Source: Croceivirga radicis
GTDB taxonomy: Bacteria > Bacteroidota > Bacteroidia > Flavobacteriales > Flavobacteriaceae
Direction: 5' to 3'
DNA: 64,000 nucleotides
Assembly: GCF_002072105.2 (NCBI RefSeq)
Contig: NZ_MTBC01000009.1
Location: 62,001-126,000 of the forward strand
Part shown: one piece after another, positions 23,771 through 45,098 of the stretch
Position numbering within the stretch: position 1 is the stretch's first letter
Layout: every line of letters begins with the position of its first letter
Position numbers and translations under genes: made by a program
Notes under the pieces: model-generated
Database searches by the model: none
Told to the model about the DNA's origin: nothing
The model's input: the letters and a program-made list of their open reading frames with translations, nothing else

Positions 23771-23816
23771 TCCTGTTGCATCCTGTTAGAACGGTTACCA
23801 TATACAACAGGATGCA
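23771..23816. promoter_or_regulatory. Paired ACAGGAT operator in the divergent PUL promoter
   Basis: A perfect 11-bp inverted repeat, TGCATCCTGTT (23777-23787) and AACAGGATGCA (23806-23816), is separated by 18 bases. The left arm has an extra TCCTGTT at 23771-23777, 10 bp away on the same face of the helix. The right arm lies 18 bases upstream of a -7-like TAGTTTTA (23835-23842) for the GH31 gene. Similar boxes precede susC, the SGNH gene and the regulator gene. Confidence 0.6.
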
Positions 23817-23872
23817 CACCTTATAGAGACATCTTAGTTTTAGCCAGGCCACCAACTAAAAACTACTTAAAC

Positions 23873-26332
23873 ATGGCAATTAAAAAAATTAAACTACTAA
23901 TATATCTGCAATTTGCATTCGTTTTTGGTAATACGTTTGCCCAAGAAAATTTAGGTGATTATCAAAGTTCCCTTAAAACCAATCCGTCAGAATATATATT
24001 TACCACTACAAAGGGTAAAGTGAGAATTCAAATTCTACAAGATAACCTAGTTAGAATAAGTACATCATGGGAGGGCGATTTTTATGAGAGCAACCCTTTA
24101 ATGGTACCAGATAAAAAATGGCCAACGGCCCAAACATCTTTTTTAGAAAACGAAACCTTTATAGAATTGGTTACCAATGCTATTCTTATAAAGATAACCA
24201 AAAGCCCTTTTAAGATAAGTTTCTTAGACACAAATAGAAAAACCCTATTGGGAGAAGGTAATTTAGCCAGAGGTGGATTTAAATCTAAGGAGAAGGTTGG
24301 TTTTTCTAAAACTTTAGAGGCAGAGGAACATTTTTTTGGTTTAGGTGAACGTATGGACGTATTGGATCGTAAAGGCACTAAAACCAAATTAAATGTTGGT
24401 AGGGGGCAGGGATTGCCGCATATAGTTGGGGCTTACAATATTTTGGAAGCCAATTATAGTCCAATTCCATTTTTAATGAGTACAAAGGGGTACGGATTAT
24501 TTTTTAATACGGCCTACCCAACAGAATGGGACTTGGGTTACTCAGATACTTCTAAAATTACTGCTACCGCATCTGGTGGTAAGTTAGATTATTATTTTAT
24601 GGCTGGCCCATCTTTTAAAACTATTCTAAGTAATTACACCGCCCTTACGGGCAGGGCACCCTTGTTGCCCAAATTTGCACATGGATTACATGTAGGAACT
24701 TACAGTGGAGGTACATGGGGGCACGAGGCAGAAACATCTGATACCTATGTGGTAGAATTGGCCAAAAAGTTTAGAGCCAATAAGATACCGGTAGATGTGT
24801 TGCATTTAGATAGTACTTGGCGCATTTTTGGTGAAAATGGTGGTAAAGGAGCTACTTCTTTTGAATGGCGAGACACGTTTAGAAACCCAAAGGCTATGTT
24901 CGATAGCGTTTATGCACAAAATTTTAGCATGGTTGGGGTGCATTTAAGACCAAGATTTGACAATGGTAAAACCATGCGCCTTTTGGATAAGGCCAGAGCA
25001 TTGAATCATGTATATCCAGAACCTAATGGTACAGGAGAGTTCGTAAATTTCTTTGAGCAATCTGCTGTAGATTGGTGGTGGTCTAATGGTGTAATGAATG
25101 TAGCCAAACAAGGTGCTATGTTTTTAAAAACAGATGAGGGTAGTGCCTTTGGGCACAAGGCTAACGAGAGTGATAAAACGGGTCCGCAGGGTAAAGAAAT
25201 AGTACCGCTTCACAATTTATTTCCTTTGGCCTATGCTAGGGCCCCATTTTTAAAATTTCAAGACTTCAATAAAGTAAGGGGCTTAAATCTTACTCGGGAG
25301 GGTTACGCGGGTATTCAACGTTATCCATATATTTTTGCAGGAGATTGGCCCAGTGAGTGGCAATATTTTGAACCAGTTATTTTGGCTGGTTTAAATATTG
25401 GTATGTCCGGTGTTGGTTATTGGGGGCACTGCATGGGTGGTTTTGAGCATGTTTCTGATGTAGAGCTTTATATGCGTTGGGTGCAATTTGGTATGCTAAG
25501 CCCAGTAGCGCATTTATTTGGAATGGAACATCCTAGCTACAAAGAGCCTTGGAATTATGGGGAAGAAGCTTTAGCTAATTTTAAAAAGTACGATGAATTG
25601 CGTTATAAGTTGTTGCCCTACATTTATAGTAGTGCTTACCAACAATACAAAACGGGAGTGCCATTAATGCGAGCTTTGGTATTGGATCATCAAGACGATG
25701 AACAAACGTATGGTATAACCGACCAATATATGTTTGGCCCCAATCTACTGGTATGCCCTGTAACTACTAAAGGAGCACAAACACGGGTAGTATACCTTCC
25801 AGAAGGTAAATGGATAGATTTTTGGAGTGGAGAAATATACGATGGTAAACAGCGGATAAGCGTACTTACCCCCAAGAATCATTTACCCTTATTTGTAAGG
25901 TCTGGAAGCATAATTCCACAGCAAAAATTAGTACAATTTATAGACAAAGAGCCGGTAAAAAATATCTGGTTACATTTTTATGGCAACAATGCTGGTGAAT
26001 TTAACCTATATGACGATGACGGATCATCTATGGCCTACCAAACTAAGAATGATTTTGCTTTAACCAAAGTTAAAATGACCGAATGGCAAGGAGATTCAAG
26101 ACAAGTTTTTATTGAAAAGCCTACCGGTAATTATAGATTAAATGAACGAAATTATTGGTTGAAGTTCAATTTAGAAGCTGCGCCAAGTAAAGTTGTGCTA
26201 AACAATAAGCCATTAGCCCAAAAAGGAACAAATGGGAATAAATCTCCTCATTATTCTTATGAAAACGGGGAACTTCAAGTTTTTATTCCGCAAGCAAATT
26301 TAAATTCAATTATATTGAAAATTTTCAGGTAA
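23873..26332 (+). CDS. GH31 family glycoside hydrolase (PUL)
   Basis: An 819-residue secreted retaining alpha-glycosidase with a signal peptide ending near TFAQ (residue 24). GH31 marks are HFFGLGERMDVLDRKG in the N-terminal sandwich, IPVDVLHLDSTWRIFG in the barrel, MFLKTDEGSAFG with the probable nucleophile Asp, GDWPSEWQYF and GYWGHCMGGF. Specificity is unclear: family members act on alpha-xylose, alpha-glucose, alpha-galactose and others. Located before susC, it is likely to trim an alpha-linked side sugar of the pectic substrate in the periplasm or on the surface. Confidence 0.9.
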   Translation: MAIKKIKLLIYLQFAFVFGNTFAQENLGDYQSSLKTNPSEYIFTTTKGKVRIQILQDNLVRISTSWEGDFYESNPLMVPDKKWPTAQTSFLENETFIELVTNAILIKITKSPFKISFLDTNRKTLLGEGNLARGGFKSKEKVGFSKTLEAEEHFFGLGERMDVLDRKGTKTKLNVGRGQGLPHIVGAYNILEANYSPIPFLMSTKGYGLFFNTAYPTEWDLGYSDTSKITATASGGKLDYYFMAGPSFKTILSNYTALTGRAPLLPKFAHGLHVGTYSGGTWGHEAETSDTYVVELAKKFRANKIPVDVLHLDSTWRIFGENGGKGATSFEWRDTFRNPKAMFDSVYAQNFSMVGVHLRPRFDNGKTMRLLDKARALNHVYPEPNGTGEFVNFFEQSAVDWWWSNGVMNVAKQGAMFLKTDEGSAFGHKANESDKTGPQGKEIVPLHNLFPLAYARAPFLKFQDFNKVRGLNLTREGYAGIQRYPYIFAGDWPSEWQYFEPVILAGLNIGMSGVGYWGHCMGGFEHVSDVELYMRWVQFGMLSPVAHLFGMEHPSYKEPWNYGEEALANFKKYDELRYKLLPYIYSSAYQQYKTGVPLMRALVLDHQDDEQTYGITDQYMFGPNLLVCPVTTKGAQTRVVYLPEGKWIDFWSGEIYDGKQRISVLTPKNHLPLFVRSGSIIPQQKLVQFIDKEPVKNIWLHFYGNNAGEFNLYDDDGSSMAYQTKNDFALTKVKMTEWQGDSRQVFIEKPTGNYRLNERNYWLKFNLEAAPSKVVLNNKPLAQKGTNGNKSPHYSYENGELQVFIPQANLNSIILKIFR

Positions 26333-26378
26333 AAACCGCTTTATATTATTGTATAATCAATAAAATAAAGAATTTACT

Positions 26379-26423
26379 CAGGATAGTACAGGATAGGGGG
26401 GTAATATCAAATCTCTAGTTTCG
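26379..26423 (+). promoter_or_regulatory. susC promoter with tandem AGGATA boxes
   Basis: CAGGATA occurs at 26379-26385 and 26389-26395, exactly 10 bp apart. A -7-like TAGTTTCG (26416-26423) begins 20 bases after the second copy, so the box takes the -33 position. Confidence 0.5.
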
Positions 26424-26438
26424 TCTCGATTGATTAAT

Positions 26439-26452: not shown

Positions 26453-26466
26453 CTAAAAACAAACAA

Positions 26467-29451
26467 ATGAAAAAATCACTAAATTCTAAACTAAGTTCAT
26501 GGTCGGTTTTTCTGGCTTTACTGCTTTCCCCGTTGTGCTTAATAGCGCAAACAGCAGTAACTGGTAAGGTATCAGATGCAAATGGGGAACCTATCCCTGG
26601 GGTTAATATAATCCAAAAGGGTACAGCTAATGGTGTAACCACAGATTTTGATGGTAACTATAGCATTAGCCTACAAACCAATAGTGCTTCAATTCTTGTC
26701 TTTTCCTATGTTGGTTTTAAAACTCAACAGGTTAATGCCAACGGAAAAACCGCTGTAAATGTTGTTTTGGAAGAAGACTCACAATTACTAGATGAGATTG
26801 TGGTGGTAGGTTATGGTACACAAAAGGTAAAAGACGTAACAGGGGCAATTGCTTCTGTAAAATCTGATGACTTTGTGGATGCTTTGCCTGTGCAACCAGA
26901 GCAGTTACTACAAGGTAAGGTAGCAGGGGTAAACATAGTGCAGAGCAGTGGTATGCCAGGGGCATCTTCTACGGTTCGTATTAGGGGAACAAGTTCTATT
27001 TCTGCGGGTAATGATCCACTTTATGTAATAGATGGTGTGCCTTTACAATTTGGTAGTGCCAATAATAATATTTCTGTGGCAACCTCTGGTTCTTCGCCCT
27101 TATCAGAAGAAGCTACCAATCCGCTTAGTTTAATAAATCCGGCAGATATAGAAAGTATAGACGTTCTTAAAGATGCTTCGGCAACTGCTATTTATGGTTC
27201 TAGGGGGGCAAATGGTGTTATTGTTATAACTACCAAAAACAAGGGTAAGTTTGGAAATTTTATTACGTATGATGCCTATACAGGTGTCTCAAGCGTTAGG
27301 GAATATTTACCAGTATTGTCTGCAGATGAGTACAGGCAAAGGGCTACAGAGAATGATCTACCTTTCTCAGACCTTGGTGCCAATACCAATTGGCAAAAAG
27401 AAATCTTTAGGGCGGCCATAACACACAACCACAATATTTCTTTCGCAGGAGGCTCAGAGACTACAAACGTAACAGGCTCATTGGGTTTAAATGATCAAGA
27501 AGGAGTCTTATTAAGTTCTAGGCTTAAGAAATATACGGGAAGATTAAACGCGAACCACTCTGCTTTAAACGATAAATTAAAGCTAGGGGTAAATATGACC
27601 TATTCCTACATAGATGAGCAACGCCCTGCTCTAAATTCCAATATTGCAGATGAAGGTGGTAATATTTTAAAAGATGCCATTAGATGGGCACCAACACTAC
27701 CGGTCTATAACGAAGATGGTTCTTTTTACCAAATAGGTGCTCTGCGTATAAACCCGGTTTCTTGGAGAGATGTAACGGATGAAAGCACCAACACCCTGTT
27801 TTTAGGAAACATGAATGCTTCTTATGAACTAATAGATGGTTTAACCTTAAAAACTAGTTTTGGTTATAGCAATGAAAAGGTAAATAGATACTCATTTATA
27901 CCATCTACGCATCCAGCCGGAGAAGGCCAAGGAGGTTTCGGCTCTATCAATAAATACACCAATAGCAACGTATTGTCAGAAACTACTTTAACGTATGACA
28001 AGGAGATTAATCCAGATAACCAAATTACATTGTTGGCAGGTTATTCTTATCAACGTTTTCTTACGGAAAACACCTTTACTTCTGCCAATAATTTTGTGTC
28101 AGATGCTACCCAATGGAACCTAATACAGTCTGGTACTATCCGTGCCAATACTTCATTTAAAGACGCCAATAGATTGGCATCGTACTACGGTAGATTAAAT
28201 TATAAATTAAAAGATAGGTATTTAATGACCTTTACCTTAAGAAGAGATGGTTCTTCTAGGTTTGGAGCCAATAATAAATGGGGTACTTTCCCTTCTGGGG
28301 CATTGGCCTGGAATATTATTGATGAGCCTTTTATGCAAAATTCCAAACTTGATAATTTAAAATTTAGATTGGGTTACGGGGTAACGGGTAATCAAGAAAT
28401 TCCCAATAATCTATATTTAGAACAACTTTCAATATCCGGTTCTGCTATATATGTTTTTGGTGGGCAAGCGGTACCCAGTGTGTTGCCTACAAACTTTCAA
28501 AATCCAGATTTAAAATGGGAACAAACAAGTCAACTTAACTTTGGTTTGGATTATGGATTGTTTGATTATAGAGTTTATGGTTCTATTGATTATTATATAA
28601 AAAAGACAGACGACCTATTGTTATCCTTTTCTACCGCTGCACCATCTGTGGTTACCACCCAGTGGGCCAATGTTGGTGAGGTACAGAATAAGGGTATAGA
28701 GTTTAGTATTAATGCAGATATTATAGATAACGGTACAGCGTTTTGGAGTACTAATCTAAATCTATCCTCTAACAAAAACGAAGTTATCTCCTTGTCTAAT
28801 GAGAATTTTCAGAGAGATGAAATTAGAACATCAAGTGGTTCTGGTGTAGTTGGCAACCAAACGTCTACCAAGATTATTAAACCTGGTTTACCCTTAAATA
28901 CTTTTTACGGATGGAAGTTTACGGGTTATGATGCAAATGGTATGGAAACCTATCTAGACGAAGACGGGGTAGAAGGAGCCGATGAGGTAGCTATAGGCGA
29001 TGCCAACCCAGATTTAATTTTTGGTTTCAATAATACGTTTAAGTACAAAAGGTTAGATGCCAATATAAATTTTAGAGGTACAATAGGCAATGATATGTAC
29101 AATAATACTAGGGCAGAATTTAGTTATACTAGTCAGTTTCCAGGTATTAATGTTTTGCGTTCTGCATTTGATACTGGTGCTAGTAGGGAACAAGTTGCCC
29201 AATATTCTTCGCAATGGATAGAAGATGCTAGCTTTTTACGATTAGACAATGTTACGGTAGGTTACAATTTTAATACAGATACTTCTAAGGTATTTAAAAA
29301 AGCGAGGGTTTATGTTTCTGGCAGTAACCTATTTGTGATTACAGGATATTCTGGCTTTGACCCAGAAGTTAGAACAAGGTCTGTTGGTATCGATTATTTG
29401 GTGTACCCAAGACCTAGAACTTTCCAAATAGGAACCAGTTTAACTTTCTAA
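26467..29451 (+). CDS. SusC/RagA-type TonB-dependent outer-membrane transporter (PUL)
   Basis: A 994-residue glycan importer. A signal peptide ends near IAQ, followed by the CarboxypepD_reg-like domain (about 28-105, GKVSDANGEPIPGVNI), the TonB box/plug region (DEIVVVGYGTQ, then VRIRGTSSISAGNDPLYVIDGVPL) and a 22-strand barrel ending with a terminal Phe (TFQIGTSLTF). It works with the SusD lipoprotein encoded 10 bases downstream to bring oligosaccharides into the periplasm. Specificity should follow the pectic PUL it belongs to. Confidence 0.96.
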   Translation: MKKSLNSKLSSWSVFLALLLSPLCLIAQTAVTGKVSDANGEPIPGVNIIQKGTANGVTTDFDGNYSISLQTNSASILVFSYVGFKTQQVNANGKTAVNVVLEEDSQLLDEIVVVGYGTQKVKDVTGAIASVKSDDFVDALPVQPEQLLQGKVAGVNIVQSSGMPGASSTVRIRGTSSISAGNDPLYVIDGVPLQFGSANNNISVATSGSSPLSEEATNPLSLINPADIESIDVLKDASATAIYGSRGANGVIVITTKNKGKFGNFITYDAYTGVSSVREYLPVLSADEYRQRATENDLPFSDLGANTNWQKEIFRAAITHNHNISFAGGSETTNVTGSLGLNDQEGVLLSSRLKKYTGRLNANHSALNDKLKLGVNMTYSYIDEQRPALNSNIADEGGNILKDAIRWAPTLPVYNEDGSFYQIGALRINPVSWRDVTDESTNTLFLGNMNASYELIDGLTLKTSFGYSNEKVNRYSFIPSTHPAGEGQGGFGSINKYTNSNVLSETTLTYDKEINPDNQITLLAGYSYQRFLTENTFTSANNFVSDATQWNLIQSGTIRANTSFKDANRLASYYGRLNYKLKDRYLMTFTLRRDGSSRFGANNKWGTFPSGALAWNIIDEPFMQNSKLDNLKFRLGYGVTGNQEIPNNLYLEQLSISGSAIYVFGGQAVPSVLPTNFQNPDLKWEQTSQLNFGLDYGLFDYRVYGSIDYYIKKTDDLLLSFSTAAPSVVTTQWANVGEVQNKGIEFSINADIIDNGTAFWSTNLNLSSNKNEVISLSNENFQRDEIRTSSGSGVVGNQTSTKIIKPGLPLNTFYGWKFTGYDANGMETYLDEDGVEGADEVAIGDANPDLIFGFNNTFKYKRLDANINFRGTIGNDMYNNTRAEFSYTSQFPGINVLRSAFDTGASREQVAQYSSQWIEDASFLRLDNVTVGYNFNTDTSKVFKKARVYVSGSNLFVITGYSGFDPEVRTRSVGIDYLVYPRPRTFQIGTSLTF

Positions 29452-29461
29452 AAAAAATAAG

Positions 29462-31039
29462 ATGAAAAACGATATAAAATTAAAAAAAGCGGTAGCAAGA
29501 TTTCTGATTTTGTGTGTTATGCTCCCGTTTGCAGGTTGTTCTCTAGAAGAAGAAACGTATTCTATTTACACACCAGAAACCTTCTACGCCAATGAACAGC
29601 AAATACTTTCCTCGCTTTCTGGGGTTTACAGGTTTTTTGCCAGTACCACTGGAATGGGCGTGGAATATAGATGCTTAGAATTGTCTGCAGATCAAGTTGT
29701 GGTTCACGAAAAAATCCAAGGCTGGTGGGGCGGTGCCAATTTCTCACAATTAATGGAACATGAGTGGGATGCGAGCCATGGTTACATTGGTGGTGCTTGG
29801 AATACATATTTTAGAACCGTGGGGCAAACCAATGCCTTAATCAGTTCTTTAGAAAATTCAGGTTTAGACGGTAGCTTGGTAGATGGTCCTATTGCCGAAT
29901 TAAGGACGTTGCGGGCTTATGCCTATTTTTTCTTGATGGATTTATTTGGTAACGTTCCTGTTTTTACGGACCCTAAGGTTGACCCTTTGAATTTGCCAAC
30001 ACAAAATACTAGAGCAGAAGTTTTTCAATTTGTAACTACAGAAATGGAGGCGGCCTTGGAGAACCTACCAACTAAAAGTGAAGCAGGAAATGCTTACTAT
30101 GGCAGGTTTACAAAAGAAGCTGTGAATGCATTACTTTCAATTATTTATTTAAATGCAGAGGTGTATACAGGTAACGCCATGTATGATAAAGCGATTACGA
30201 ATGCAGATGCGGTAATAAACTCTGGTGCGTACAGCTTATTGCCCAATTACTTTGACAATTTTGTATACAATAATGATAATAATGCCGAATTTATTTTTGG
30301 CGCTGTTTACTCTCCAGATATTTCTGGTGGTATTGGCCATCCATTAGTTCAAAAGGTTTTACCGGGTATACAAGGTGGGCTGTTTGGTTTGCCCTACACC
30401 CCACAAAATGGTTTTGGTACCAGACCTTCTGTAATGAATAAGTATGAAGATGAAGATGACCGCAAATCAATGTTCATAGGTTATGGACCGCTAACAGACC
30501 CAAGAAATGGCGAAGTGGTAATGGTAGAACGCATTGTGCCAGATAACAATTCCACTTTGTATAATCCTGATACTTCAACCGAAGGTCCGGTTCCATACGA
30601 AATCATTCCCGCAACTGGAATACGATTACAACCAATGAATGCTGGTATCAAGTGGGTAAAATGGGGCCTAGACCCTAATACAAATGGTGGTAATGCAGGT
30701 AATGATATTGCCTTTGTACGCTATGCGGATATTCTTTTGGTAAAAGCAGAGGCTTTATTAAGAAACGGAGATGCCGGTGGTGCCCTTCCTTTGGTAAATC
30801 AAGTGAGGGAGCGTAGCAACGCAACCTTGTTGACCGCGGTTACCTTAGATGATATTTTGGACGAAAGAGGTAGGGAATTGGCGTTTGAAATGTCTAGAAG
30901 AAGAGACCTAATACGTTTTGGAAAATTTGGGGATGCCTGGGAGTTTAAAGAAGTTTCTGAAGACTTTAGAACCTTGTATCCCATACCTAGGGCAGCTATA
31001 GAAGCGAATCCTAATTTGCAGCAAAACCCTGGTTATTAA
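29462..31039 (+). CDS. SusD/RagB-type glycan-binding lipoprotein (PUL)
   Basis: A 525-residue surface lipoprotein with its lipobox at LPFAGC (Cys26). SusD-like helical repeats are visible (ALISSLENSG, ELRTLRAYAYFFLMDLFGNVPVFT), and the RagB/SusD C-terminal domain carries FVRYADILLVKAEALLRNG and the closing ELAFEMSRRRDLIRFGKF. It should cap the SusC barrel as the lid of the import complex. A terminator-like hairpin follows within 20 bases. Confidence 0.95.
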   Translation: MKNDIKLKKAVARFLILCVMLPFAGCSLEEETYSIYTPETFYANEQQILSSLSGVYRFFASTTGMGVEYRCLELSADQVVVHEKIQGWWGGANFSQLMEHEWDASHGYIGGAWNTYFRTVGQTNALISSLENSGLDGSLVDGPIAELRTLRAYAYFFLMDLFGNVPVFTDPKVDPLNLPTQNTRAEVFQFVTTEMEAALENLPTKSEAGNAYYGRFTKEAVNALLSIIYLNAEVYTGNAMYDKAITNADAVINSGAYSLLPNYFDNFVYNNDNNAEFIFGAVYSPDISGGIGHPLVQKVLPGIQGGLFGLPYTPQNGFGTRPSVMNKYEDEDDRKSMFIGYGPLTDPRNGEVVMVERIVPDNNSTLYNPDTSTEGPVPYEIIPATGIRLQPMNAGIKWVKWGLDPNTNGGNAGNDIAFVRYADILLVKAEALLRNGDAGGALPLVNQVRERSNATLLTAVTLDDILDERGRELAFEMSRRRDLIRFGKFGDAWEFKEVSEDFRTLYPIPRAAIEANPNLQQNPGY

Positions 31040-31058
31040 AGAATAAGTTAGTTTTTTC

Positions 31059-31098
31059 AAACAGGTGCAGGCGCTTTGGCAACTGCACTTGTTTTTTA
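31059..31098 (+). terminator. Terminator-like hairpin after susD
   Basis: A 12-bp stem (31059-31070 against 31083-31094, one G-U pair) with a 12-base loop ends in a T run. It lies between susD and the lyase-like gene of the same operon, so it probably ends some transcripts and lets others through. Confidence 0.6.
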
Positions 31099-31102
31099 AA
31101 TT

Positions 31103-32362
31103 ATGAAGACCAATATTATATATAGACTGGTATTAATTACGATGTTATGGTGCTTTGCTGGGCTATCTGCACAAACAATTAACGGAATTAATTATAATAC
31201 CCTAAATCATGTTTCAAAAACATTTGATTTGGCAGGAGCAGATAGTTTTGGACAAACCTTTGCTTCAGAAAGTTTTACCTATAAAGACAAAGTAACTGGA
31301 AAAACAATAATCGCTTTAACTACTTCCAAACATCATAATTCAAAAATGTATCAAACACATCCGCAATGGACAGCAGATGGTAAATACATAATTTTTACAT
31401 CAAACAGAACAGCAACAAAAGAAGACAAGACTAGGCAGTATTATGCCATTTCTACCAAAACCCATAAGATTACGCAAATTACAACTGGTAATAGCTATCA
31501 TGACTTTCATTTGTCTTGGAAAAGTAACCAAGCGTATAGATTTAAAAAGAATAAGCTAATTAGCATAGATTTAGACAATCTGTTGGAAGATAGCTCTATG
31601 GAGGATGTTAAAAGTCCAGAAGCCTATGAAAAAATAATTGCTACTATTCCAGATACTTTAAAACCCACGGGAATGGGTTTAGATGCAACGGAAAACAAGA
31701 TTTATTTTGCTTCTAAACTAGCGGACAAGTTATATGGTATCTATCAATTGGATTTTAAAACGGGAGTTACCAAACAATTATTGGAGGTACCTTTCTGGGT
31801 AGGTCATTTGCAAGCAAACCCATATAAAGCTAACTCCTTTCTGTATTGCTGGGAAACTAGGGGAGATGCCCCACAACGCATGTGGTACGTTACCGTACAA
31901 CCAGATGGAAAAGTTACCAATAAGGCTTTGTACCGAGAACGTGCAGATGATTGGGTAACCCATGAGGTATTTATGGGAGCAAACCAAGTATTGTTTCATT
32001 TAATGGGGCACTTAGATAGGTTAAATGCCAATAAAACTGGTATTTTTTCTATAAATACCGAAACCAATAAAATTACGTTTCATGGCCAAACAACTGATGG
32101 TGGTTATTGGCATTGCAACGCTACCCCAGACGGTAAGTATATATTAGGAGATACTTTTGATGGTAAGCTTTATAGAATAAATACCAAAAATCCAGAGGAA
32201 CAGCTACTTCTTACCCAAGGGCATAGAAAAACAAGCGTTAGTCCCTTTTCAAGCGAGGCACATATGCATCAATCCATTAGCCCAGATGGCAAATGGGTTT
32301 TATTTAATTCAAGCAGATTTACAGCTTGCGATATACTAGTAATGGAAATAGAGCAAAATTAA
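31103..32362 (+). CDS. Oligogalacturonate lyase-like beta-propeller protein (PL22-like, PUL)
   Basis: A 419-residue exported protein with a signal peptide ending near LSAQ. The body is a seven-bladed propeller of TolB/PD40-like repeats (HPQWTADGKYIIFTSNR, CNATPDGKYILGDTF, SISPDGKWVLFNSSR). His-rich blocks GHLQANP, DGGYWHCNATP and EAHMHQS match the metal-binding face of PL22 oligogalacturonate lyases, which cut short galacturonides by beta-elimination. Enterobacterial PL22 enzymes are cytoplasmic, whereas this one is exported. It could be a non-PL22 propeller lyase of related fold. Confidence 0.65.
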   Translation: MKTNIIYRLVLITMLWCFAGLSAQTINGINYNTLNHVSKTFDLAGADSFGQTFASESFTYKDKVTGKTIIALTTSKHHNSKMYQTHPQWTADGKYIIFTSNRTATKEDKTRQYYAISTKTHKITQITTGNSYHDFHLSWKSNQAYRFKKNKLISIDLDNLLEDSSMEDVKSPEAYEKIIATIPDTLKPTGMGLDATENKIYFASKLADKLYGIYQLDFKTGVTKQLLEVPFWVGHLQANPYKANSFLYCWETRGDAPQRMWYVTVQPDGKVTNKALYRERADDWVTHEVFMGANQVLFHLMGHLDRLNANKTGIFSINTETNKITFHGQTTDGGYWHCNATPDGKYILGDTFDGKLYRINTKNPEEQLLLTQGHRKTSVSPFSSEAHMHQSISPDGKWVLFNSSRFTACDILVMEIEQN

Positions 32363-32416
32363 TATGAGACCAAAAAGACTGTAACTTTAGCATATACAGA
32401 ACCTTAAAAGATAAAT

Positions 32417-33694: not shown

Positions 33695-33704
33695 AAACAG
33701 ATAC

Positions 33705-36471: not shown

Positions 36472-36473
36472 AT

Positions 36474-36788: not shown

Positions 36789-36791
36789 ACC

Positions 36792-38255
36792 ATGGTTTTA
36801 ACTAGATATTTAAGTGTAATCCTGTTAGTGTTTACATTCGCATGCAAGAAAAATAAAGAGACAAAAACAAATATTGGTAGCAAAACCAGTTTGGAGCCCG
36901 GTTGGACCCATAAAGTAGGGGCCAAAAACTTTAATGTTCCAGAAAGAATATTTTATGCCAATGATTTTGGTGCGCAGAGCAAAGTTGGATTTACAAATAC
37001 CAAAGCAATACAAACGGCAATTGATTCTTGCGCCGCTAGTGGTGGAGGTATAGTTAAATTTAGACCTGGTACTTATCTCTCAGGGTCAATATTTTTAAAG
37101 GATAATGTACAGTTGCATTTAGATAAGGAGGTAACCTTACTAGGAAGCCAAAATATTTTGGATTATAAAGAAATAGCCACCCGGGTAGCAGGTATTGAGA
37201 TGGAATGGCCAGCGGCACTTGTGAATGCCATTGATACGCAAAACGTACTAATTTCCGGGGAGGGAACCATAGATGGTCAGGGTAAGGTTTTTTGGGATAT
37301 GTATTGGGACATGCGAAAGAACGATTATGAGCCTAAAGGTTTAAGATGGATTGTGGATTATGATGCTAAAAGACCAAGGACCGTTTTAATACAAAATAGT
37401 AAGAACGTTATAGTAAGGGATCTTACATTACAACGTGCCGGTTTTTGGACGGTACAAATATTGTATTCTAAACATATAACCACAGACGGATTAACCATTA
37501 GAAACAACATTGGAGGGCATGGTCCTAGCACAGACGGAATTGATATAGATTCTAGTAGCTATATTTTGGTTCAAAACTGTGATATAGATTGCAATGACGA
37601 TAATTTTTGTCTAAAAGCAGGCAGGGATTGGGACGGTCTGCGCGTTAACAGACCAACAGAGTATGTGGTTATAAAGGATTGTAAAACAGGTAAAGGCGCT
37701 GGCCTATTAACTGTTGGTAGCGAGACCAGTGGTGGTATTAGGCATATTTATGCCAACAACATACAGGGTAAGGGCACGGATGCGGGTTTAAAACTAAAAT
37801 CTGCGACAACCAGAGGCGGTGTGATAGAGGATATTATTTTTGACAATATGAAAATGGATAGCGTGGGTACCTTTTTAAGCATTAGTACGAACTGGAACCC
37901 CACCTACAGCTATTCTAAATTACCTAAAGAATATAATATAGACGAAGTTCCAGAACATTGGAAAACCATGTTAAACACCGTTCCAGAGCAACAGGGTATT
38001 CCTCAATTTAAAAACATTGTACTCAATAATGTTTTGGTAAAACATGCTAACAAAGCAATTAGTGTAAGTGGTTTGGAGGTATCTACAATTAACAAGGTGT
38101 ATTTAAAAGACGTTCAAATTAATGCTGCAACTGCCGGTAGTATAAACCATAGTAAAAACTGGAAAATAGATAATGTAAGCTTACGTACTTTGGATGCTTC
38201 TAAAGTTGAATTGGAAAATTGCTCTAATATCGATTTAAAGGCAATCTATGATTAG
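36792..38255 (+). CDS. GH28 polygalacturonase-type lipoprotein (PUL)
   Basis: A 487-residue right-handed beta-helix enzyme with lipobox FTFAC (Cys18). GH28 active-site blocks are visible: GPSTDGIDID (Asp248), CNDDNFCLKAG (Asp269-Asp270) and GSETSGGIRH. It should hydrolyse galacturonic acid linkages in homogalacturonan or rhamnogalacturonan, acting exo or endo. It is the last gene of the plus-strand operon and ends two bases from the convergent CE12 gene. Confidence 0.9.
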   Translation: MVLTRYLSVILLVFTFACKKNKETKTNIGSKTSLEPGWTHKVGAKNFNVPERIFYANDFGAQSKVGFTNTKAIQTAIDSCAASGGGIVKFRPGTYLSGSIFLKDNVQLHLDKEVTLLGSQNILDYKEIATRVAGIEMEWPAALVNAIDTQNVLISGEGTIDGQGKVFWDMYWDMRKNDYEPKGLRWIVDYDAKRPRTVLIQNSKNVIVRDLTLQRAGFWTVQILYSKHITTDGLTIRNNIGGHGPSTDGIDIDSSSYILVQNCDIDCNDDNFCLKAGRDWDGLRVNRPTEYVVIKDCKTGKGAGLLTVGSETSGGIRHIYANNIQGKGTDAGLKLKSATTRGGVIEDIIFDNMKMDSVGTFLSISTNWNPTYSYSKLPKEYNIDEVPEHWKTMLNTVPEQQGIPQFKNIVLNNVLVKHANKAISVSGLEVSTINKVYLKDVQINAATAGSINHSKNWKIDNVSLRTLDASKVELENCSNIDLKAIYD

Positions 38256-38257
38256 CG

Positions 38258-39754
38258 CTATTTTATAAAATAAACAATTTCACAACCTTTTAATTGTTTT
38301 AAACTTTTGGCCGCAATTGAAGCATTGAATTGAGCCCCTTTAAGACCCGTATGTGTGTGGTCTTTAGGAAAGAATTCGGCAACCTTCTTAGCACCTAAAT
38401 GTTGATAAGCAGTTGCAATACTGTCACTTAAATCTATAAACTGTACGTTATTCTTTAGGGCTATCTCTTTAGTCCATTTAATGTAAGAATCTTTTCGTTG
38501 TTCCACTTTTCCCATAGGCCATTCATTTCTTGGGGTTAAACTACATAATATTGGGGTGGCTCTGGCTGCTTTGGTATCTTTAACATACTGCTCTAAATAC
38601 CAACCAAATGTATGTACTACTTCTGTAGAATCATTAGCAAATGCTACATGCGTCGTATCTTTTCCTGTTCCTGGTAACGAGCCACGATATTTTTCTTTAT
38701 CAATGTTACCTGCATCGTTGTGGCCAAATTGAATTATAACAAAATCGCGCGGGGTAAGTTTTTGTTTAATGGCATTCCAATGTCCTTGGTTCATAAATGT
38801 TCTACTACTACGCCCGCCAATAGCTCTATTCTGAACATTAACCCGTAAGGTATCTACAAATTGTACAAATGGAACACCCCAGCCAACGGCATTATCATTA
38901 TTATTATCTGCCATAGTAGAATCTCCTATTAAATAAATGGTTCGTTTTGGGGGTAACTGAATGTCTGGGTTATTTAGGAGTATATCGTTAAAAAAAGAAA
39001 CCTTCTGTTGTAGGCTTTCGGCGACTAATTTTGCGGCAACCGCAGCTCCTTTTGCGTTGGTATGTGTGGCATCCCAATCGTAGAAATAAGTATTAATCAC
39101 TTTTTCCATGCCAAGTTTTTCCATTTCCAAAGCTAGCAGATTGTTCAAGTTTAAGTAAGGAACTTTCTCTTCTTCGGCTACCTGTCTTACCCAACCACCA
39201 TAATTGGAGTTATTGCGTATAACAGTATTGTTAACCCATTTGTTTCTAGGTATAGGGGTAATCAAAATGGGTTTACCTCCGGCCTCTTTAACTTCGTTAA
39301 CCATTTTTCTTAGGTACCAACCGTAAGAATGTACCGTTTCGTGCTTGCCTGTTAATAAATTATTTATGGTTTCTGTTTCTTCTCCAACTCCTTTAATAGT
39401 CCCTCTAGCCCTAATCGTGTCGTTAATAGGGCCGTCATCGTTATGACCAAATTGTATCAAAACAAAATCCCCCTTTTTAATTTCAGCAAGAACAGGACCC
39501 CAAAGCCCCTTATCTATATAAGTTCTAGAGCTGGTGCCGCCCAAAGCATGGTTTTTAACCTTTATTTTGGTGCTATCTAAGTATTGTTCTAAAAAATCGC
39601 CCCATCCCCATAAACCATCTGCACCATCACCACGCCCGTTTTTTACGGTACTATCGCCTACGGTAAATAAGGTGGGTGTTTCTTTTTTAGAAGTACCACA
39701 GCCAATTAATATCAATGCGAACAGGCTTGTGATTAGTTGTTTTGATATGTTCAT
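38258..39754 (-). CDS. Double-domain CE12 rhamnogalacturonan acetylesterase (PUL)
   Basis: A 498-residue lipoprotein (lipobox LIGC, Cys19) with two complete SGNH/CE12 domains. Domain 1 (about 28-250) has GDST with Ser35, GGTSSRT, QFGHND and DATHTN. Domain 2 (about 270-490) has GDST with Ser279, GGRSSRT, QFGHND and DHTHTG. All catalytic blocks are kept in both, so each may be active. It removes O-acetyl groups from galacturonate or rhamnose residues. Its ATG overlaps the GH2 stop by four bases, so it is translated from the GH2 transcript. Confidence 0.9.
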   Translation of the reverse strand: MNISKQLITSLFALILIGCGTSKKETPTLFTVGDSTVKNGRGDGADGLWGWGDFLEQYLDSTKIKVKNHALGGTSSRTYIDKGLWGPVLAEIKKGDFVLIQFGHNDDGPINDTIRARGTIKGVGEETETINNLLTGKHETVHSYGWYLRKMVNEVKEAGGKPILITPIPRNKWVNNTVIRNNSNYGGWVRQVAEEEKVPYLNLNNLLALEMEKLGMEKVINTYFYDWDATHTNAKGAAVAAKLVAESLQQKVSFFNDILLNNPDIQLPPKRTIYLIGDSTMADNNNDNAVGWGVPFVQFVDTLRVNVQNRAIGGRSSRTFMNQGHWNAIKQKLTPRDFVIIQFGHNDAGNIDKEKYRGSLPGTGKDTTHVAFANDSTEVVHTFGWYLEQYVKDTKAARATPILCSLTPRNEWPMGKVEQRKDSYIKWTKEIALKNNVQFIDLSDSIATAYQHLGAKKVAEFFPKDHTHTGLKGAQFNASIAAKSLKQLKGCEIVYFIK

Positions 39755-42630
39755 TTTGTTTTGTTGTAATCAATAAAATCGAACCAAAGGCTCATGGTAA
39801 TTCCTTGGTCTCCCTTTTTTATACGAATGTTGGTTGGTTGGCTATTAGGGCCATGGTCCGATATGGGTTTAAATGAACGCATGGCAGGTATTTCGTACAT
39901 AAAAGAAATATCCCCTTCTGGAAATTCGGGTTGTGGATGGCTTCTTCCCTTAATGGCATACTTGGGGTATTCCGGTGTGAATAGCCTGAGAAAGGTATTT
40001 TCATTTTCGCTAAAAAACCGAAACGTATTGTTTTTAGAATGGAGTGTTCCTGCGTAAAAATTGGCGTGGTAGCCCTTAAATTCTGGGTAGACCAAATTTT
40101 CAAAACTTTCTCCGGTAATCGTATTGTTGTAGGCTTTTTCCCAGAGTCCATAATTAACCCCTTCCATCCTGTTTTTCCAGACACGGTAGGGTCCCTTTCC
40201 AAACCATTTAAAGCCAAGTACATCGGTCTCTGGATAATCAAAAGACAACCCAAAACTATTAATTTTAGCATCAAAAATAGGTCCGTCAAAACCCGTTATG
40301 GTTTTGGCTTTTTGTAAGGCCGTCATTTTAAGATTTATCTTACCATCTTGGGTCATAGTCCACCTTATTTTATCTATAGCTCCAGAGTAAAAGACGTCTA
40401 CAACCGCAGTGCTATCTGTTTTAAAAGATTGTACGGAGTCTACAACGGCTTGCATGCCTATAGGTTTTGGTCCATTGGTTAGAGGAACACTTTTTTTGCT
40501 ACTCGTAAATTTAACAATATAGCCAGTTGTTTTATTTAGGGTAAGACTAATGTTATTGGCAGACACGGTAATATTTTCGCCGTCTGTATTTAGATTTACT
40601 TTAGATGGATTAGCAGCACTTTTTAGAAATTTATCACTGTAAAATTTAGCCTTATGAATGGGCCATGTAAAGGTGTTCACTGCTTGCCCCTTATTGTTGA
40701 ATGCCGTTAGTTTTAACCAGTCACCTTCAAAGAAATTTGCTGGTAAATTTAGATTGATTTTTCTAGTTTCCCCAGGAGAAATATCTGGAAATGAATAGGA
40801 TGCTTCATGAATTACACTTGCCGAATCTTTGGAATAAAACGAATCTTTAGAAGCGCTTACTATTTGGTAAGTATACGTGAAGGTATTTAAGTTGGTGAAT
40901 AAATTGCTGTTGCTAATGGCAAGCTCACCATTATACATCTTTGTGATTTGAACAGGAGCAATTTGTACGGGAGAAAAAATAGATTTAATAGCATAATAGC
41001 TACCTTCTTTTTCTCTATGGGGCCCTACAATCCCATCTGGGGCCAATGAACCGGCAGAGTCATACTTACGTGGGCCTTTCCAATCTGTACGAAGCACGGC
41101 CTCATCTACAAAAGCCCAAATAAAACCACCAGCAAATAGCGGACTTTTACTATAGTTTTCCCAAAAATCTGCTAGACCCGCTCCGCCACCGTTATCATAG
41201 GTGCTGTGCATAAACTCCGTAGGGAAAAAGACATTTTCTCCATTGGTAAATCTATGCAAGCCTGTTTGGTAAGTAGGGTAGTGGTGGGTGTCCCAACCAT
41301 CATAATCAGACCAAGGGTGTATTACTATCCTATTTTGTAGATCTTGGGTTTTAAAAACATGGTCCGCACCTGGTCCCCATCCGCCTTCATTTCCGTTGTC
41401 CCAAATAATTACAGCTGGATGATTTGCGTCTTTATCGAGTACCTCTTGAGCAAGCTTGGCCCCTAAGTTGGTATCGTACGGGTTTTGCCACCCAGCCAGC
41501 TCGTCCAGAACAAGGATTCCTAAAGAATCGCAAACCGAAAGAAAATGTTCTGCAGGCGGGTAATGTGTGCGTACGGCATTCATATTCATGTCTTTGATCA
41601 AGGTAGCGTCCAATAAACTAATGCGCTTACTAAGGCTACGGCCAGATTCTGGCCATATACTATGCCTGTTTACTCCTTTCATTATTAACTTAGTGCCATT
41701 AAGGTAAATACCATCTTTCTTAATAAACGCTAAGGTTCTAAAACCAATACGTTCAGTAACGGTATGCATAATTTTACCTTTTTCTACTAAAGAGACCCTT
41801 AGGTCATATAATACAGGATTTTCTGGGGACCATGGCTTCACGTTTTTCCATTGGGTATGGATAGTATCTCTTACACCATTGTTTAAATCAACATTTTGCG
41901 ATGGTCTAAATTTTTTAGCGGTATGCTCTTTTATGGATACATTTAAAGTAGAATTTTTGGCAAGTTTATTCAATTGTGTCGCTAGTATTAGGCTTCCGTC
42001 TTGCTTTGCATCTACTTTTAATTTGGCAATGTGTTTTTTAGGTAAAATTTCTAACCAAACCGGTCTATAGATACCACCGAACAACCACCAATCCGTGTAA
42101 CGCTCTGCTTGGTTAACCGATTGGTTTTGGGAGTGTTTACTAACCATGACCTCTAATACGTTTTCTTGTCCGTATTTAAGAAACTTAGAAACATCATATT
42201 TAAACCTGTAGAAACCACCTTGATGTACTGGGCCAACCTTTTCTCCATTTAAAAAGACTTCTGCGTCTGTCATAACTCCATCAAACACGAGGTTAATGTG
42301 TTTATCCTTATGGTTAGGTAAAAGGTTAAAACGGTATTTGTAAAATCCTTTTTCCTTGCTGGGTTCTTTAAGGTTTAATTCTTTATACCATCTACCATAG
42401 GTATATTCACCAAAACCCTGCAGCTCCCAATTAGAGGGAACGCCTATAGTAGACCATTGGTTGCAGTTATTGCCATTACTACATTTAAATTGCCAAGTAA
42501 CCGGATGTTCAAAATCTTTACCACTTAGGTATATCTTTTCTGTTTCTTGCGCATGTATTAGGTGGTAAGCGGTAAGGTATAAAAGTATTAGGACAAACAG
42601 TTTTGTTGGTCTATTCTGTTTAATTACCAT
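39751..42630 (-). CDS. GH2 beta-galactosidase-type enzyme (PUL)
   Basis: A 959-residue secreted LacZ-like enzyme. Jelly-roll domain with KGFYKYRFNLLPN and VFDGVMTDAEVFLNG, TIM barrel with LIMKGVNRHSIWPESGRSL, acid/base Glu in WDNGNEGGWG and probable nucleophile Glu in FPTEFMHSTYDNGG, then the small-chain domain with FKWFGKGPYRVWKNRMEG. I place the start at the ATG at 42630, ahead of a signal peptide; the frame upstream runs into the SGNH gene. It may remove beta-galactose side chains from rhamnogalacturonan. Confidence 0.9.
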   Translation of the reverse strand: MVIKQNRPTKLFVLILLYLTAYHLIHAQETEKIYLSGKDFEHPVTWQFKCSNGNNCNQWSTIGVPSNWELQGFGEYTYGRWYKELNLKEPSKEKGFYKYRFNLLPNHKDKHINLVFDGVMTDAEVFLNGEKVGPVHQGGFYRFKYDVSKFLKYGQENVLEVMVSKHSQNQSVNQAERYTDWWLFGGIYRPVWLEILPKKHIAKLKVDAKQDGSLILATQLNKLAKNSTLNVSIKEHTAKKFRPSQNVDLNNGVRDTIHTQWKNVKPWSPENPVLYDLRVSLVEKGKIMHTVTERIGFRTLAFIKKDGIYLNGTKLIMKGVNRHSIWPESGRSLSKRISLLDATLIKDMNMNAVRTHYPPAEHFLSVCDSLGILVLDELAGWQNPYDTNLGAKLAQEVLDKDANHPAVIIWDNGNEGGWGPGADHVFKTQDLQNRIVIHPWSDYDGWDTHHYPTYQTGLHRFTNGENVFFPTEFMHSTYDNGGGAGLADFWENYSKSPLFAGGFIWAFVDEAVLRTDWKGPRKYDSAGSLAPDGIVGPHREKEGSYYAIKSIFSPVQIAPVQITKMYNGELAISNSNLFTNLNTFTYTYQIVSASKDSFYSKDSASVIHEASYSFPDISPGETRKINLNLPANFFEGDWLKLTAFNNKGQAVNTFTWPIHKAKFYSDKFLKSAANPSKVNLNTDGENITVSANNISLTLNKTTGYIVKFTSSKKSVPLTNGPKPIGMQAVVDSVQSFKTDSTAVVDVFYSGAIDKIRWTMTQDGKINLKMTALQKAKTITGFDGPIFDAKINSFGLSFDYPETDVLGFKWFGKGPYRVWKNRMEGVNYGLWEKAYNNTITGESFENLVYPEFKGYHANFYAGTLHSKNNTFRFFSENENTFLRLFTPEYPKYAIKGRSHPQPEFPEGDISFMYEIPAMRSFKPISDHGPNSQPTNIRIKKGDQGITMSLWFDFIDYNKTK

Positions 42631-43900
42631 AGGGTTTGGTATTTTCAAATCGTGAATTGGTTTTAAATTCAAATGTTTTATAGTTTTTTGGAAAAGCTGC
42701 ATCATAATTGGGTAAATCTTTGATGAAATAGGAAGCAGGTATAGTGCTTGACTCCTTTAAATTATAGGCTACACACATGGCAATTTCAAAAGCCCCAAAA
42801 TTGGTGAAATGTGTATCGTCTGCAAGTGCCGATGTTTGATTAGGGAAACTGTTTTCAGGTAAATGAACGTAAGCTTTTTTGCTTTCTTCAGGTCCCCAAG
42901 CAACTAACATTTTTGTGGTAAGATGGGTTAAATCTATTAGTGGTACCTGCATCTCTTTGGCCACGATTCTAATAGCATTTGGGTATTCGCCATGTGTAGC
43001 TTTTAGTTGCGTTTTATTGTTAAAGAAGCGTCTTTGAATGGGGGTGAACAATACAGTTTGCCCACCTTTTTTTCGAATGGCATTTACGTATTCTTTTAAG
43101 TAATTGGTAAAAGAGGAGTAGGGTCCAATATTTTGACCCTTTCGCTTTTCATCGTTATGGGCAAATTGTATAAAAACATAATCTCCTTGTTTTAATTGTG
43201 AAAGAATTTTTGCCATACGATTTCTAGCTCTGAATGAATGTAAGGAAGCACCCGATGCTGCATAGTTGGCTATACAGATGTTTTTGGTTAAACTGGGCAA
43301 AAATTGCCCCCATGCGGCCCAAGGTTCTAAATCTTGGTCGGTTACGGTAGAGTCTCCCGCTAAAAATATAGTTTTGGAACTTGTAGGTGTAATGCTAATA
43401 GATTTTATACAGGTGGTTCCTAAAAATTCCAAGGTTAGTTTATGGTCCCAATTTAAAGTTCGTTTCTCCCTATCTTTTAGTTTTACAAAAAGCGTATCGT
43501 TTATAACCGTATCCATTTTATGGACTAAATAGGTTACTTCTTTATGACTGCCCTTTTCTATGATTAGATTGTTACCTAGTAAGCGGCGAGATTCTGCTTT
43601 TATAGTGGTTTGGGTCTGTTCTATTGGACTGGCCAATACTATTTTAACTAAATAATTACCTGGATCTGCCATAACCGAAAAGTAGGAGGGTTTAGTTAGG
43701 CAAACACAATCGTCTAGCTGGGAGATGTGCTTATTGGTTATGGCATCCCAACCAGCACCACTTTCCATGTTGTACGCTTGTTTACCAACAAAATTATTGG
43801 TTGTATCATCAGCTAGGCCAAAAGTATACTTTTGCTCTTGCCCACTTAAGATAGCGCCATAGATAAAAAATAAGATTGATAAAGCTTTTTGTACCACCAT
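42620..43900 (-). CDS. SGNH/CE12-type esterase with N-terminal beta domain (PUL)
   Basis: A 426-residue secreted esterase. A signal peptide ends near LSGQ. Residues about 22-170 are a beta-rich, carbohydrate-binding-like domain (KYTFGLADDTTNNF, then SIEQTQTTIK-like strands). The catalytic SGNH domain has FLAGDSTVTDQD, YAASGASLHSF, QFAHND and DDTHFTNFGAFE. With the double CE12 gene, the locus has three such catalytic domains. It overlaps the GH2 start by 11 bases and heads the right-arm operon. Confidence 0.85.
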   Translation of the reverse strand: MVVQKALSILFFIYGAILSGQEQKYTFGLADDTTNNFVGKQAYNMESGAGWDAITNKHISQLDDCVCLTKPSYFSVMADPGNYLVKIVLASPIEQTQTTIKAESRRLLGNNLIIEKGSHKEVTYLVHKMDTVINDTLFVKLKDREKRTLNWDHKLTLEFLGTTCIKSISITPTSSKTIFLAGDSTVTDQDLEPWAAWGQFLPSLTKNICIANYAASGASLHSFRARNRMAKILSQLKQGDYVFIQFAHNDEKRKGQNIGPYSSFTNYLKEYVNAIRKKGGQTVLFTPIQRRFFNNKTQLKATHGEYPNAIRIVAKEMQVPLIDLTHLTTKMLVAWGPEESKKAYVHLPENSFPNQTSALADDTHFTNFGAFEIAMCVAYNLKESSTIPASYFIKDLPNYDAAFPKNYKTFEFKTNSRFENTKPYGN

Positions 43901-43908
43901 ACTTTTAG

Positions 43909-43953
43909 TAAAAATACTAGGTGATAATTTGGTAAGTATCCTGTAGTGTAAGG
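43909..43953 (-). promoter_or_regulatory. Promoter and ACAGGAT box of the SGNH-GH2-CE12 operon
   Basis: On the minus strand the 16-mer CCTTACACTACAGGAT (43953 to 43938) is followed after 21 bases by a -7-like TATTTTTA (43916 to 43909), 8 bases before the ATG. The 16-mer abuts the stop codon of the regulator gene and recurs inverted upstream of that gene. Confidence 0.5.
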
Positions 43954-44997
43954 CTAAACAGAATTCCTTTCTATATAGCTAAATACGTTCTTGACTTTTT
44001 CTCTTTTGTTTCTAAGTACCATGTAGGCGGCAGTTTCTCCCATTGCAGTAAAATCAGTACTAATTACGGTAATACCCAAAAGCTCTTTTAGTGGCGTTTC
44101 ATTATAAGAGATTATGCCAATATCTTCCCCTAAAACCAATTGTTTGGCGCGTACTTGTCTAACTAAATTCACCAAGTCCATTTCTTCTATGGTAATAAAA
44201 ACATCTTTGCTTTGTAGTTCCATTTCATCATAGATTTCATCTAGGATTTCAAAGTCAAAATTGAATTCTCCACAAAATTTTTGAAAACCGTATAAAATCC
44301 GTTTTGGATAAGGAAAAACACTTTTGCTAGGGTAAACTAAAATAAGTTTGTCATATTTACGAAGTCTTTCTAAAGCCTCTTTAAGGGCATTGTAAATATC
44401 GTTTTCAAAATCTTGATACAAGGCACCGTAATTCCCGTTTAATTCTAGTCTTGCATTATCCAATACGATAAGTTGGTCTTGTGGAATCTTTTTTAATACT
44501 TCTAGTACGTTTTTGGTGGCACTAACGTGACCAAGGTTCATGTTCTTAAAATGCGGCATTATCACATAGTAATCATAGGCTCCTAAATTGCGTTCAATGG
44601 CTCTGGTAAACAAGGATTCGTCACAGTGATAAATAAATAGATTTACATGGCCATTTACTCCTAAACCATTAACAAAAGAATTGTAAATGCGCATTTTGTA
44701 AGAGCTGGGTTTGTTTATTAAAAAGAAGACATTGATTTTAGAAATCAAATCGGTCTTTGCTACGTAAAACCCCTTGCCCTTAACAGCGGTTATTATTTTT
44801 TTTGTTTTTAGCTCAGAATATGCTTTCTCTATGGTGTCTCTAGATAACAAGAGATTTTCACTAAGTTCATTTATAGATGGGATTTTACTGCCGATGGGCA
44901 AATTTCCTTTTGCTATATGGCTAATTAAAGAATCTACTACCTGTTTGTATTTTGGTATTCTAGAATCGTCATTTACAAGAATGTCCGTTGCTTTTAT
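43954..44997 (-). CDS. GntR-type regulator with LacI-like sensor domain (PUL)
   Basis: A 347-residue transcription factor. The N-terminal winged helix (about 5-75) shows the GntR pattern: IPKYKQVVDSLISHIAKG, GSKIPSINELSENLLLSRDT and ITAVKGKGFYV. The remainder (about 80-340) resembles a periplasmic-binding/LacI sensor domain (ending with a DIGIISYNETPLKELLGITVIS-type strand). I prefer the GTG at 44997: relatives start near IKATDILVNDDS, and an upstream ATG at 45054 would lie inside the inferred -7 box. It is the only regulator in the PUL and probably senses a released sugar such as rhamnose. Confidence 0.82.
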   Translation of the reverse strand: MKATDILVNDDSRIPKYKQVVDSLISHIAKGNLPIGSKIPSINELSENLLLSRDTIEKAYSELKTKKIITAVKGKGFYVAKTDLISKINVFFLINKPSSYKMRIYNSFVNGLGVNGHVNLFIYHCDESLFTRAIERNLGAYDYYVIMPHFKNMNLGHVSATKNVLEVLKKIPQDQLIVLDNARLELNGNYGALYQDFENDIYNALKEALERLRKYDKLILVYPSKSVFPYPKRILYGFQKFCGEFNFDFEILDEIYDEMELQSKDVFITIEEMDLVNLVRQVRAKQLVLGEDIGIISYNETPLKELLGITVISTDFTAMGETAAYMVLRNKREKVKNVFSYIERNSV

Positions 44998-45051
44998 CAC
45001 AATGGTAAATTTAAGGCTACGTCTAAATTTAGGGACATTTATATAGTAACC

Positions 45052-45098
45052 CAAGTATATTTTCTTTATTTCTTAAAACCCTTACACTACAGGATGCA
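45052..45098 (-). promoter_or_regulatory. Promoter and reversed ACAGGAT box of the regulator gene
   Basis: On the minus strand TGCATCCTGTAGTGTAAGG (45098 to 45080) is followed after 20 bases by a -7-like TATACTTG (45059 to 45052). The box is in the opposite orientation to those in front of the enzyme operons. Confidence 0.45.

Follow-up and report, generated by a model that had tools for sequence, protein, structure and literature searches.

A tandem-repeat candidate operator at fixed distance from the -7 element, and its probable GntR/LacI-type regulator, in a proposed flavobacterial rhamnose and rhamnogalacturonan I regulon

A 64,000-nucleotide stretch of the Croceivirga radicis genome (contig NZ_MTBC01000009.1, positions 62,001 to 126,000; here called the window) carries a polysaccharide utilization locus (PUL; 18073-45220) whose promoters share a box containing ACAGGAT. 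This box is probably the operator of a rhamnose and rhamnogalacturonan I (RG-I) regulon, bound most likely by REG, an AraR-like GntR/LacI chimera encoded within the PUL, which would act as an activator. The box, its spacing to the -7 element, its conservation, its co-occurrence with REG and the island nature of the PUL are established by observation. A sequence-only reading of the window had reported five ACAGGAT boxes in the PUL, and each was verified at its position.

The window has 13 copies of ACAGGAT versus 6.2 expected, a count reached by 0 of 100 shuffles. Six of the 13 copies are intergenic by a simple gene call, and one of these, at 945, falls outside the pattern and has no -7 element at the fixed offset described below. 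ACAGGAT alone was rejected as a diagnostic because it also lies within genes and at 945. The 7-mer by itself is weak evidence, and the composite of box and -7 element is the strong signal. The 10-mer ACAGGATGCA has 6 copies in the 3.6-Mb genome, 3 of them in the window. Each box is an 18-bp tandem repeat in which a distal half-site, CAGKAYAGY, is followed directly by a proximal half-site, ACAGGATRS, with a 10-bp period. The sequence-only reading had seen a second copy 10 bp away in two promoters; the period stood, but the second copy proved to be general, though degenerate in some promoters. The ACAGGAT that it had taken as the GH106 box is present but forms the distal half-site, the proximal one being ACAGGAC. 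Rather than the 18 to 22 bases that it had given between box and -7 element, the distance is fixed: the TA of a TAnnTTTG -7 element begins 28 nt past the first base of the proximal half-site (offset 28).

A composite score (maximum, 24) was assigned from the two half-sites and TAnnTTTG at offset 28, with a cut-off of at least 19 in the window. Exactly five composite promoters were found, against a null of 0.15 per window in 20 Markov sequences; the consensus was built from many genomes including the window, so the window score is not fully independent. When the -7 element was displaced by -6 to +6 nt, 0 or 1 window site was recovered at each other shift, versus 5 at the true spacing. The candidate operators, -7 elements and genes of the PUL are as follows.

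18073-23711, minus strand: probable target operon encoding GH106, GH105/88 and an esterase with a BT_3657-like arabinosidase stretch
23741-23748, minus strand: -7 element of the GH106 promoter, TATTTTTA, its TA 28 nt past the proximal half-site
23768-23785, minus strand: operator of the GH106-GH105-esterase operon, CAGGATGCA.ACAGGACGG, composite score 21 of 24
23798-23815, plus strand: GH31 operator with a degenerate distal half, CCATATACA.ACAGGATGC, composite score 21
23835-23842, plus strand: -7 element of GH31, TAGTTTTA, offset 28
23873-26332, plus strand: GH31, probable target gene
26379-26396, plus strand: operator of susC-susD and the following genes, CAGGATAGT.ACAGGATAG, full match with 0 mismatches, score 24
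26416-26423, plus strand: -7 element of susC, TAGTTTCG, offset 28
26467-38255, plus strand: probable targets susC, susD, PL22-like, DUF4861, GH88-family, sulfatase-like and GH28
38258-43900, minus strand: probable target operon of two SGNH/CE12-like esterases and GH2
43909-43916, minus strand: -7 element of the CE12-GH2-SGNH operon, TATTTTTA, offset 28
43936-43953, minus strand: operator of the CE12/SGNH-GH2-SGNH operon, CCTTACACT.ACAGGATAC, score 22
43954-45000, minus strand: REG, with a GntR winged helix and a LacI/periplasmic binding protein (PBP)-type domain; probable GTG start at 45000, judged from sequence
45080-45097, plus strand: operator next to the regulator gene, in an orphan promoter that points rightward, CCTTACACT.ACAGGATGC, score 22
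45117-45124, plus strand: -7 element of the orphan promoter, TATTTTCG, offset 28

Conservation was assessed around REG relatives and in a panel of 199 genomes that includes the window's own. The best match to REG reached at least 55% identity in 41 of the 199 genomes, the next best being 46%. Named records place relatives of REG in genera including Euzebyella, Maribacter, Leeuwenhoekiella, Arenibacter and Zobellia, and in a few, such as Lewinella and Ohtaekwangia, which we take to lie outside the flavobacteria. At least one intergenic ACAGGAT was present in 19 of 20 regions fetched around REG relatives. Named loci were then picked by similarity to REG; 78 were kept, 2 of 80 being omitted for a length under 9 kb. 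When 8145 intergenic 7-mers from these loci were ranked de novo, AGTACAG and ACAGGAT, which belong to one motif, took ranks 1 and 2. ACAGGAT was observed 149 times versus 19.1 expected and was present in 65 of the 78 loci. Removal of duplicates and of sites lacking a same-strand gene within 260 nt reduced 148 intergenic sites to 128 unique promoters, a set that leaves out sites near locus ends. TAnnTTT stood at offset 28 in 67 of the 128, at any other offset in at most 6, and at offsets 27 and 29 in 0; T was found at offset 28 in 84% and A at offset 29 in 91%. These 128 promoters have no conserved TTG between the box and the -7 element. At a composite score of at least 20, the 78 loci contained 158 intergenic and 3 genic sites, and a reversed-box control gave 2.

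The box also tracks REG and the rhamnose gene rhaD across genomes. A strict form of the pattern was found in 36 of the 41 genomes with REG at 55% or more versus 10 of the 158 others (Fisher, 4e-25), and rhaD was found in all 41 versus 5 of 158 (Fisher, 2e-37). Those five, which bring the rhaD total to 46 of 199 genomes, have REG at 41 to 46% identity. The sequence-only reading had called for footprinting in genomes with an orthologous PUL; box and spacing recur across flavobacterial genera, and 30 of 30 rhaD loci scored have an upstream box with the fixed -7 element at a score of at least 19, placed 60 to 79 nt before the start. Upstream scoring covered 34 loci, two of them from genome G108, or 33 of 47 rhaD matches. 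Three further genomes have REG at 42 to 43%; among these, G064 scores 21 and G020 scores 18.

REG has a GntR winged helix at its N terminus (PF00392; E value, 6.9e-15; 54.9 bits versus a cut-off of 27). Its C-terminal domain matched Peripla_BP_3 at 25.1 bits (E value, 2.1e-5), slightly under the cut-off of 26.5. The structure model had a predicted local distance difference test score (pLDDT) of 86.8, and Foldseek matched it to LacI-type regulators with template modeling (TM) scores of about 0.45 to 0.57. REG is thus a GntR superfamily member with the LacI/PBP-type C-terminal domain of an AraR-like chimera, and the AraR DNA-binding domain (4egy) is among its sequence matches. It was the sole DNA-binding protein recognized in the 15 PUL open reading frames scanned (five of them in NCBIfam only); no AraC DNA-binding domain, as expected of an AraC-type RhaR or a hybrid two-component system (HTCS) regulator, was reported among them. 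The conserved box is a 10-bp tandem repeat and not the palindrome typical of GntR operators. Because this tandem operator is atypical, we call REG AraR-like and do not file it as AraR.

The genome-wide scan that the sequence-only reading had also called for revealed three intergenic copies beyond the PUL. With the 18-mer and up to two mismatches allowed, 11 matches were found, versus 3 for the reversed control. Four of the 11 are window sites, the GH31 site being missed for its additional mismatches. Of the remaining seven, four are intragenic without a -7 element; the other three are intergenic with -7-like elements (TACTTTTA, TACTATTG and TATTCTTG) at the exact offset, and precede a rha operon, a GH29 fucosidase gene and a susC gene with GH115 two genes on. 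The rha operon, located on a contig other than that of the PUL, encodes RhaD, a bifunctional rhamnulose-1-phosphate aldolase/dehydrogenase (above the equivalog cut-off), a RhaI-like isomerase and an LldD-like dehydrogenase (both below cut-off), an FGGY-family kinase and a permease-looking protein without a family match. The genes that follow the 158 sites in the named loci comprise 59 rhaD, 22 susC-type, 11 CE12 and 9 sulfatase-like genes, 11 others of the reference set and 31 outside the set, while 15 sites have no same-strand gene within 300 nt. Three of the 31 were checked by Pfam and found to encode RhaT, a KduI-like protein and fructose-1,6-bisphosphatase. As far as can be read from sequence, the regulon extends beyond the PUL, and the rhamnose operon is the most constant of its members. 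In three loci, L127 (8850-9857), L138 (7680-8687) and L145 (near 11234), the box stands ahead of a fructose-1,6-bisphosphatase gene, identified by Pfam in L127 and by sequence likeness in the other two; this enzyme is a possible gluconeogenic member of the regulon.

More distant relatives of REG carry different repeats. Two groups were compared: group i, with 36 to 46% identity (20 loci, L151-L170, including the rhaD-linked 41 to 46% proteins), and group ii, with 33 to 38% identity (20 loci, L171-L190). Group i loci contain ACTRGTAGGT-type tandem sites at 10 bp, a different operator candidate. Group ii loci contain AGAAC repeats, mostly between the regulator's -7-like element and its start codon, just downstream of the former, which suggests the placement that an autorepressor would have. 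ACAGGAT ranked 448th near group i (6 observed, 2.8 expected) and 54th near group ii (9 observed, 2.2 expected). Autocorrelation of intergenic words peaked at 10 nt in clades A/B and in group i; in group ii it peaked at 5, 7 and 14. As group ii has no peak at 10, we do not assign it a 10-bp period. The recognition helix most often reads SRDTVEK where the box is nearby; in group i it is usually SRDTVLM and in group ii SRDTVFK, though exceptions occur. The [VI]EKAY of close relatives is retained in G020 and G064, whereas G108 has VVKAY with a degenerate box (score 19) and G037 has IVRAY with no box. Judged from these sequences, box and recognition helix go together, in small numbers. An operator that changes with the regulator would be expected if the regulator binds the box.

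These results suggest the following mechanism. The operator would consist of units of about ACAGKAYRSY repeated head to tail every 10 bp and would cover roughly -49 to -32, because sigma-A promoters of Flavobacterium psychrophilum have TAnnTTTG at -12 to -5 (PMC9723704). REG may sense rhamnose or a rhamnose-derived metabolite and would then, by contact with RNA polymerase, activate promoters whose -7 element is TAnnTTTG. The most constant of its targets would be rhaD, usually divergent from the regulator gene, and PUL genes would have entered the regulon by carrying the same box. Binding by REG, activation and the ligand are what we infer; REG is linked to and co-occurs with rha genes that share the box upstream, and the operator stands at a fixed phase just upstream of the -7 element with no conserved -33 element. 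Spacing that is rigid to one base, the position of the box and the lack of a conserved -33 TTG favor an activator that touches polymerase. The box was also considered as a sigma-factor -33 element; its structure as a 10-bp tandem repeat and its association with one regulator led to rejection of this reading. The proposals of the sequence-only reading that one operator at an activator-like position is common to the PUL promoters and that the GntR-type protein is its likely binder are hence supported, the latter by the co-occurrence and by the different repeats near distant relatives.

Two other explanations of the binder and its action were weighed against activation by REG. REG might act from the box by repression, occluding the -33 region until the sugar releases it. 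AraR, whose DNA-binding domain is among the matches of REG, is named a repressor, and the group ii sites are repressor-like in lying just downstream of the regulator's -7 element; one-base rigid spacing over 128 promoters without a conserved TTG suggests polymerase contact instead, and we regard repression as unlikely. Alternatively, the factor that binds the box might be a different one, for instance an activator of the AraC or hybrid two-component type, whose gene lies elsewhere and is inherited together with the pathway. Non-palindromic tandem operators suit AraC- or DeoR-type proteins, and the rhamnose regulators described are of the AraC, DeoR and LacI types, the DeoR-type ones with 10- to 11-bp direct repeats (PMC3870299). 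A separate factor is somewhat more improbable still, since REG adjoins rhaD in 60 of the 78 loci (themselves chosen by REG), rhaD is present in all 41 genomes with REG at 55% or more, and the distant REG-like groups have repeats of their own nearby.

Several observations weigh against activation through the box by REG. The 78 loci were selected by REG and several are close relatives, so that their counts are not independent, and 7 of them lack any site at a score of at least 20. The strict pattern is missing from 5 of the 41 REG genomes (near misses in G075, G154 and G121; the remaining two are G173 and G190) and is present in 10 of the 158 genomes without such a REG, once in nine and twice in G054; G064, among these ten, carries rhaD together with a REG of 43%. 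G037, with rhaD and a REG of 42%, showed no box upstream of rhaD. Of the -7-like elements beyond the PUL, three in all, TACTATTG and TATTCTTG each deviate by one base. Finally, GntR operators are typically palindromes, which makes a tandem repeat atypical, but direct-repeat precedents exist (PMC4494728).

The box at 45080 was read differently from the other four by the sequence-only reading, which took it as reversed at the regulator and as controlling that gene differently. It is indeed antiparallel to the regulator gene, but it has a plus-strand -7 element of its own (TATTTTCG) at the fixed spacing and so marks a rightward promoter too. In 60 of the 78 named loci, rhaD is the gene divergent from REG. 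A composite promoter scoring at least 19 is aimed at rhaD in 59 of these 60 divergons, and the sixtieth scores 18; none of the 78 loci has a composite box directed at REG. In favor of an operator for the regulator itself, about 20 nt separate the box from a -7-like TATACTTG (45052-45059) for that gene, and a site within a divergon could affect both genes. Besides the orientation of the boxes, the distance from box to REG ranges from 71 to 382 nt among the 60 divergons, and 12 of the 18 loci without a recognized rhaD neighbor have no composite box within 450 nt of REG. We consider it very unlikely that 45080-45098 is the regulator's own operator, and this reading was rejected.

The rightward promoter, 45080-45124, faces a convergent M14 gene. 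The genes at 17045-18076 (plus strand) and 45224-47755 (minus strand), which flank the PUL, are direct neighbors in 7 of 9 congeneric genomes compared, and in the other 2 the M14 gene has a different neighbor; a tenth congener, G205, has only a 33% M14 relative. Because the flanking genes adjoin in these seven, the PUL is an island, either gained here or lost there. Its G+C content is 0.374, compared with 0.367 on both flanks. The island border probably orphaned the promoter next to REG, as would follow if the PUL is an island located away from the rha operon. Most simply, a rhaD-REG divergon would have been severed at the border with the promoter staying behind, in which case the lost neighbor would be rhaD. 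An AT-rich stretch with a terminator-like hairpin follows the orphan promoter at 45125-45205. The promoter might drive a short rhamnose-responsive RNA ending at the hairpin near 45176-45203, with its operator and -7 element intact (score 22) ahead of the inverted repeat. We doubt this, as the hairpin suits the M14 gene that converges on it, and the two Rfam matches are sub-threshold and on the opposite strand. With these as the only Rfam matches, a known RNA at the orphan promoter was rejected.

REG can be compared with other regulators of sugar genes. In Zobellia galactanivorans, alginate catabolism is reportedly repressed by AusR, which is, like REG, a GntR-family protein of flavobacterial polysaccharide genes. 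NanR is not known to have a LacI-type domain. It is a GntR-family protein, called a repressor, that acts on tandem repeats, (GGTATA)3 (PMC8012715), and the GntR-family proteins FarR and NagQ act on direct repeats (PMC4494728). The AraR subfamily of Firmicutes shares with REG the GntR winged helix and GalR/LacI-type C-terminal domain (PMC4494728); AraR serves arabinose genes, whereas REG is associated with rhamnose and RG-I genes and a 10-bp tandem operator at an activator-like position. Bacteroides RhaR, of the AraC family, and the DeoR- and LacI-type regulators control L-rhamnose catabolic genes, as REG probably does, but REG differs from all three types in being a GntR/LacI chimera. In Bacteroides, an AraC-type RhaR and HTCS regulators of RG PULs have been described (PMC3878776). 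HTCS_Rgu regulators also serve RG PULs through direct repeats, HTCS_Rgu-2 using 14-bp sites with a 6-bp spacer (PMC3878776); the regulator here is a one-component protein, with a 10-bp period and a box shared with a monosaccharide operon.

Within partly covered open-access literature, to which subscription papers and RegPrecise do not belong, neither an operator like this nor a GntR-type rhamnose regulator in flavobacteria was found. The same holds for the portions available of PMC3870299 (whose main text does not contain the word GntR), PMC3878776, PMC5507952, PMC5698469, PMC4494728, PMC9296495 and PMC12858550. As far as found, this is a sugar-responsive regulon with a regulator type new for its pathway. 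Its strict operator and fixed spacing would make the regulon readable from sequence in many genera, and the operator would predict which PULs act on rhamnose-containing glycans. REG also makes it possible to test whether a GntR/LacI chimera can activate from tandem sites. A broader generalization seems to us evenly balanced: the Flavobacteriaceae may have a family of GntR/LacI chimeras with head-to-tail operators that differ per subfamily, its rhamnose branch being a polymerase-contacting activator at fixed spacing whose one regulon takes in rhamnose catabolism, RG-I PULs and, in some genomes, fructose-1,6-bisphosphatase, with PULs joining and leaving as box-carrying islands.

Among the probable targets in the window, the operon that begins with susC would extend over the genes at 26467-38255. 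The SGNH/CE12-like esterases of the 38258-43900 operon have weak NCBIfam matches to PaeY, and its GH2 resembles a BT4156-like exo-beta-1,4-galactosidase, below that model's cut-off. The same 16 bases, CCTTACACTACAGGAT, flank the regulator gene as outward-pointing copies (43938-43953 and 45080-45095). Both copies share their departures from the consensus, which, on comparison of the two, suggests duplication or conversion. Paralogue pairs of REG adjoin, with gaps of about 100 to 340 nt, in G163:C5, G070:C8, G044:C1, G132:C7 and G153:C1.

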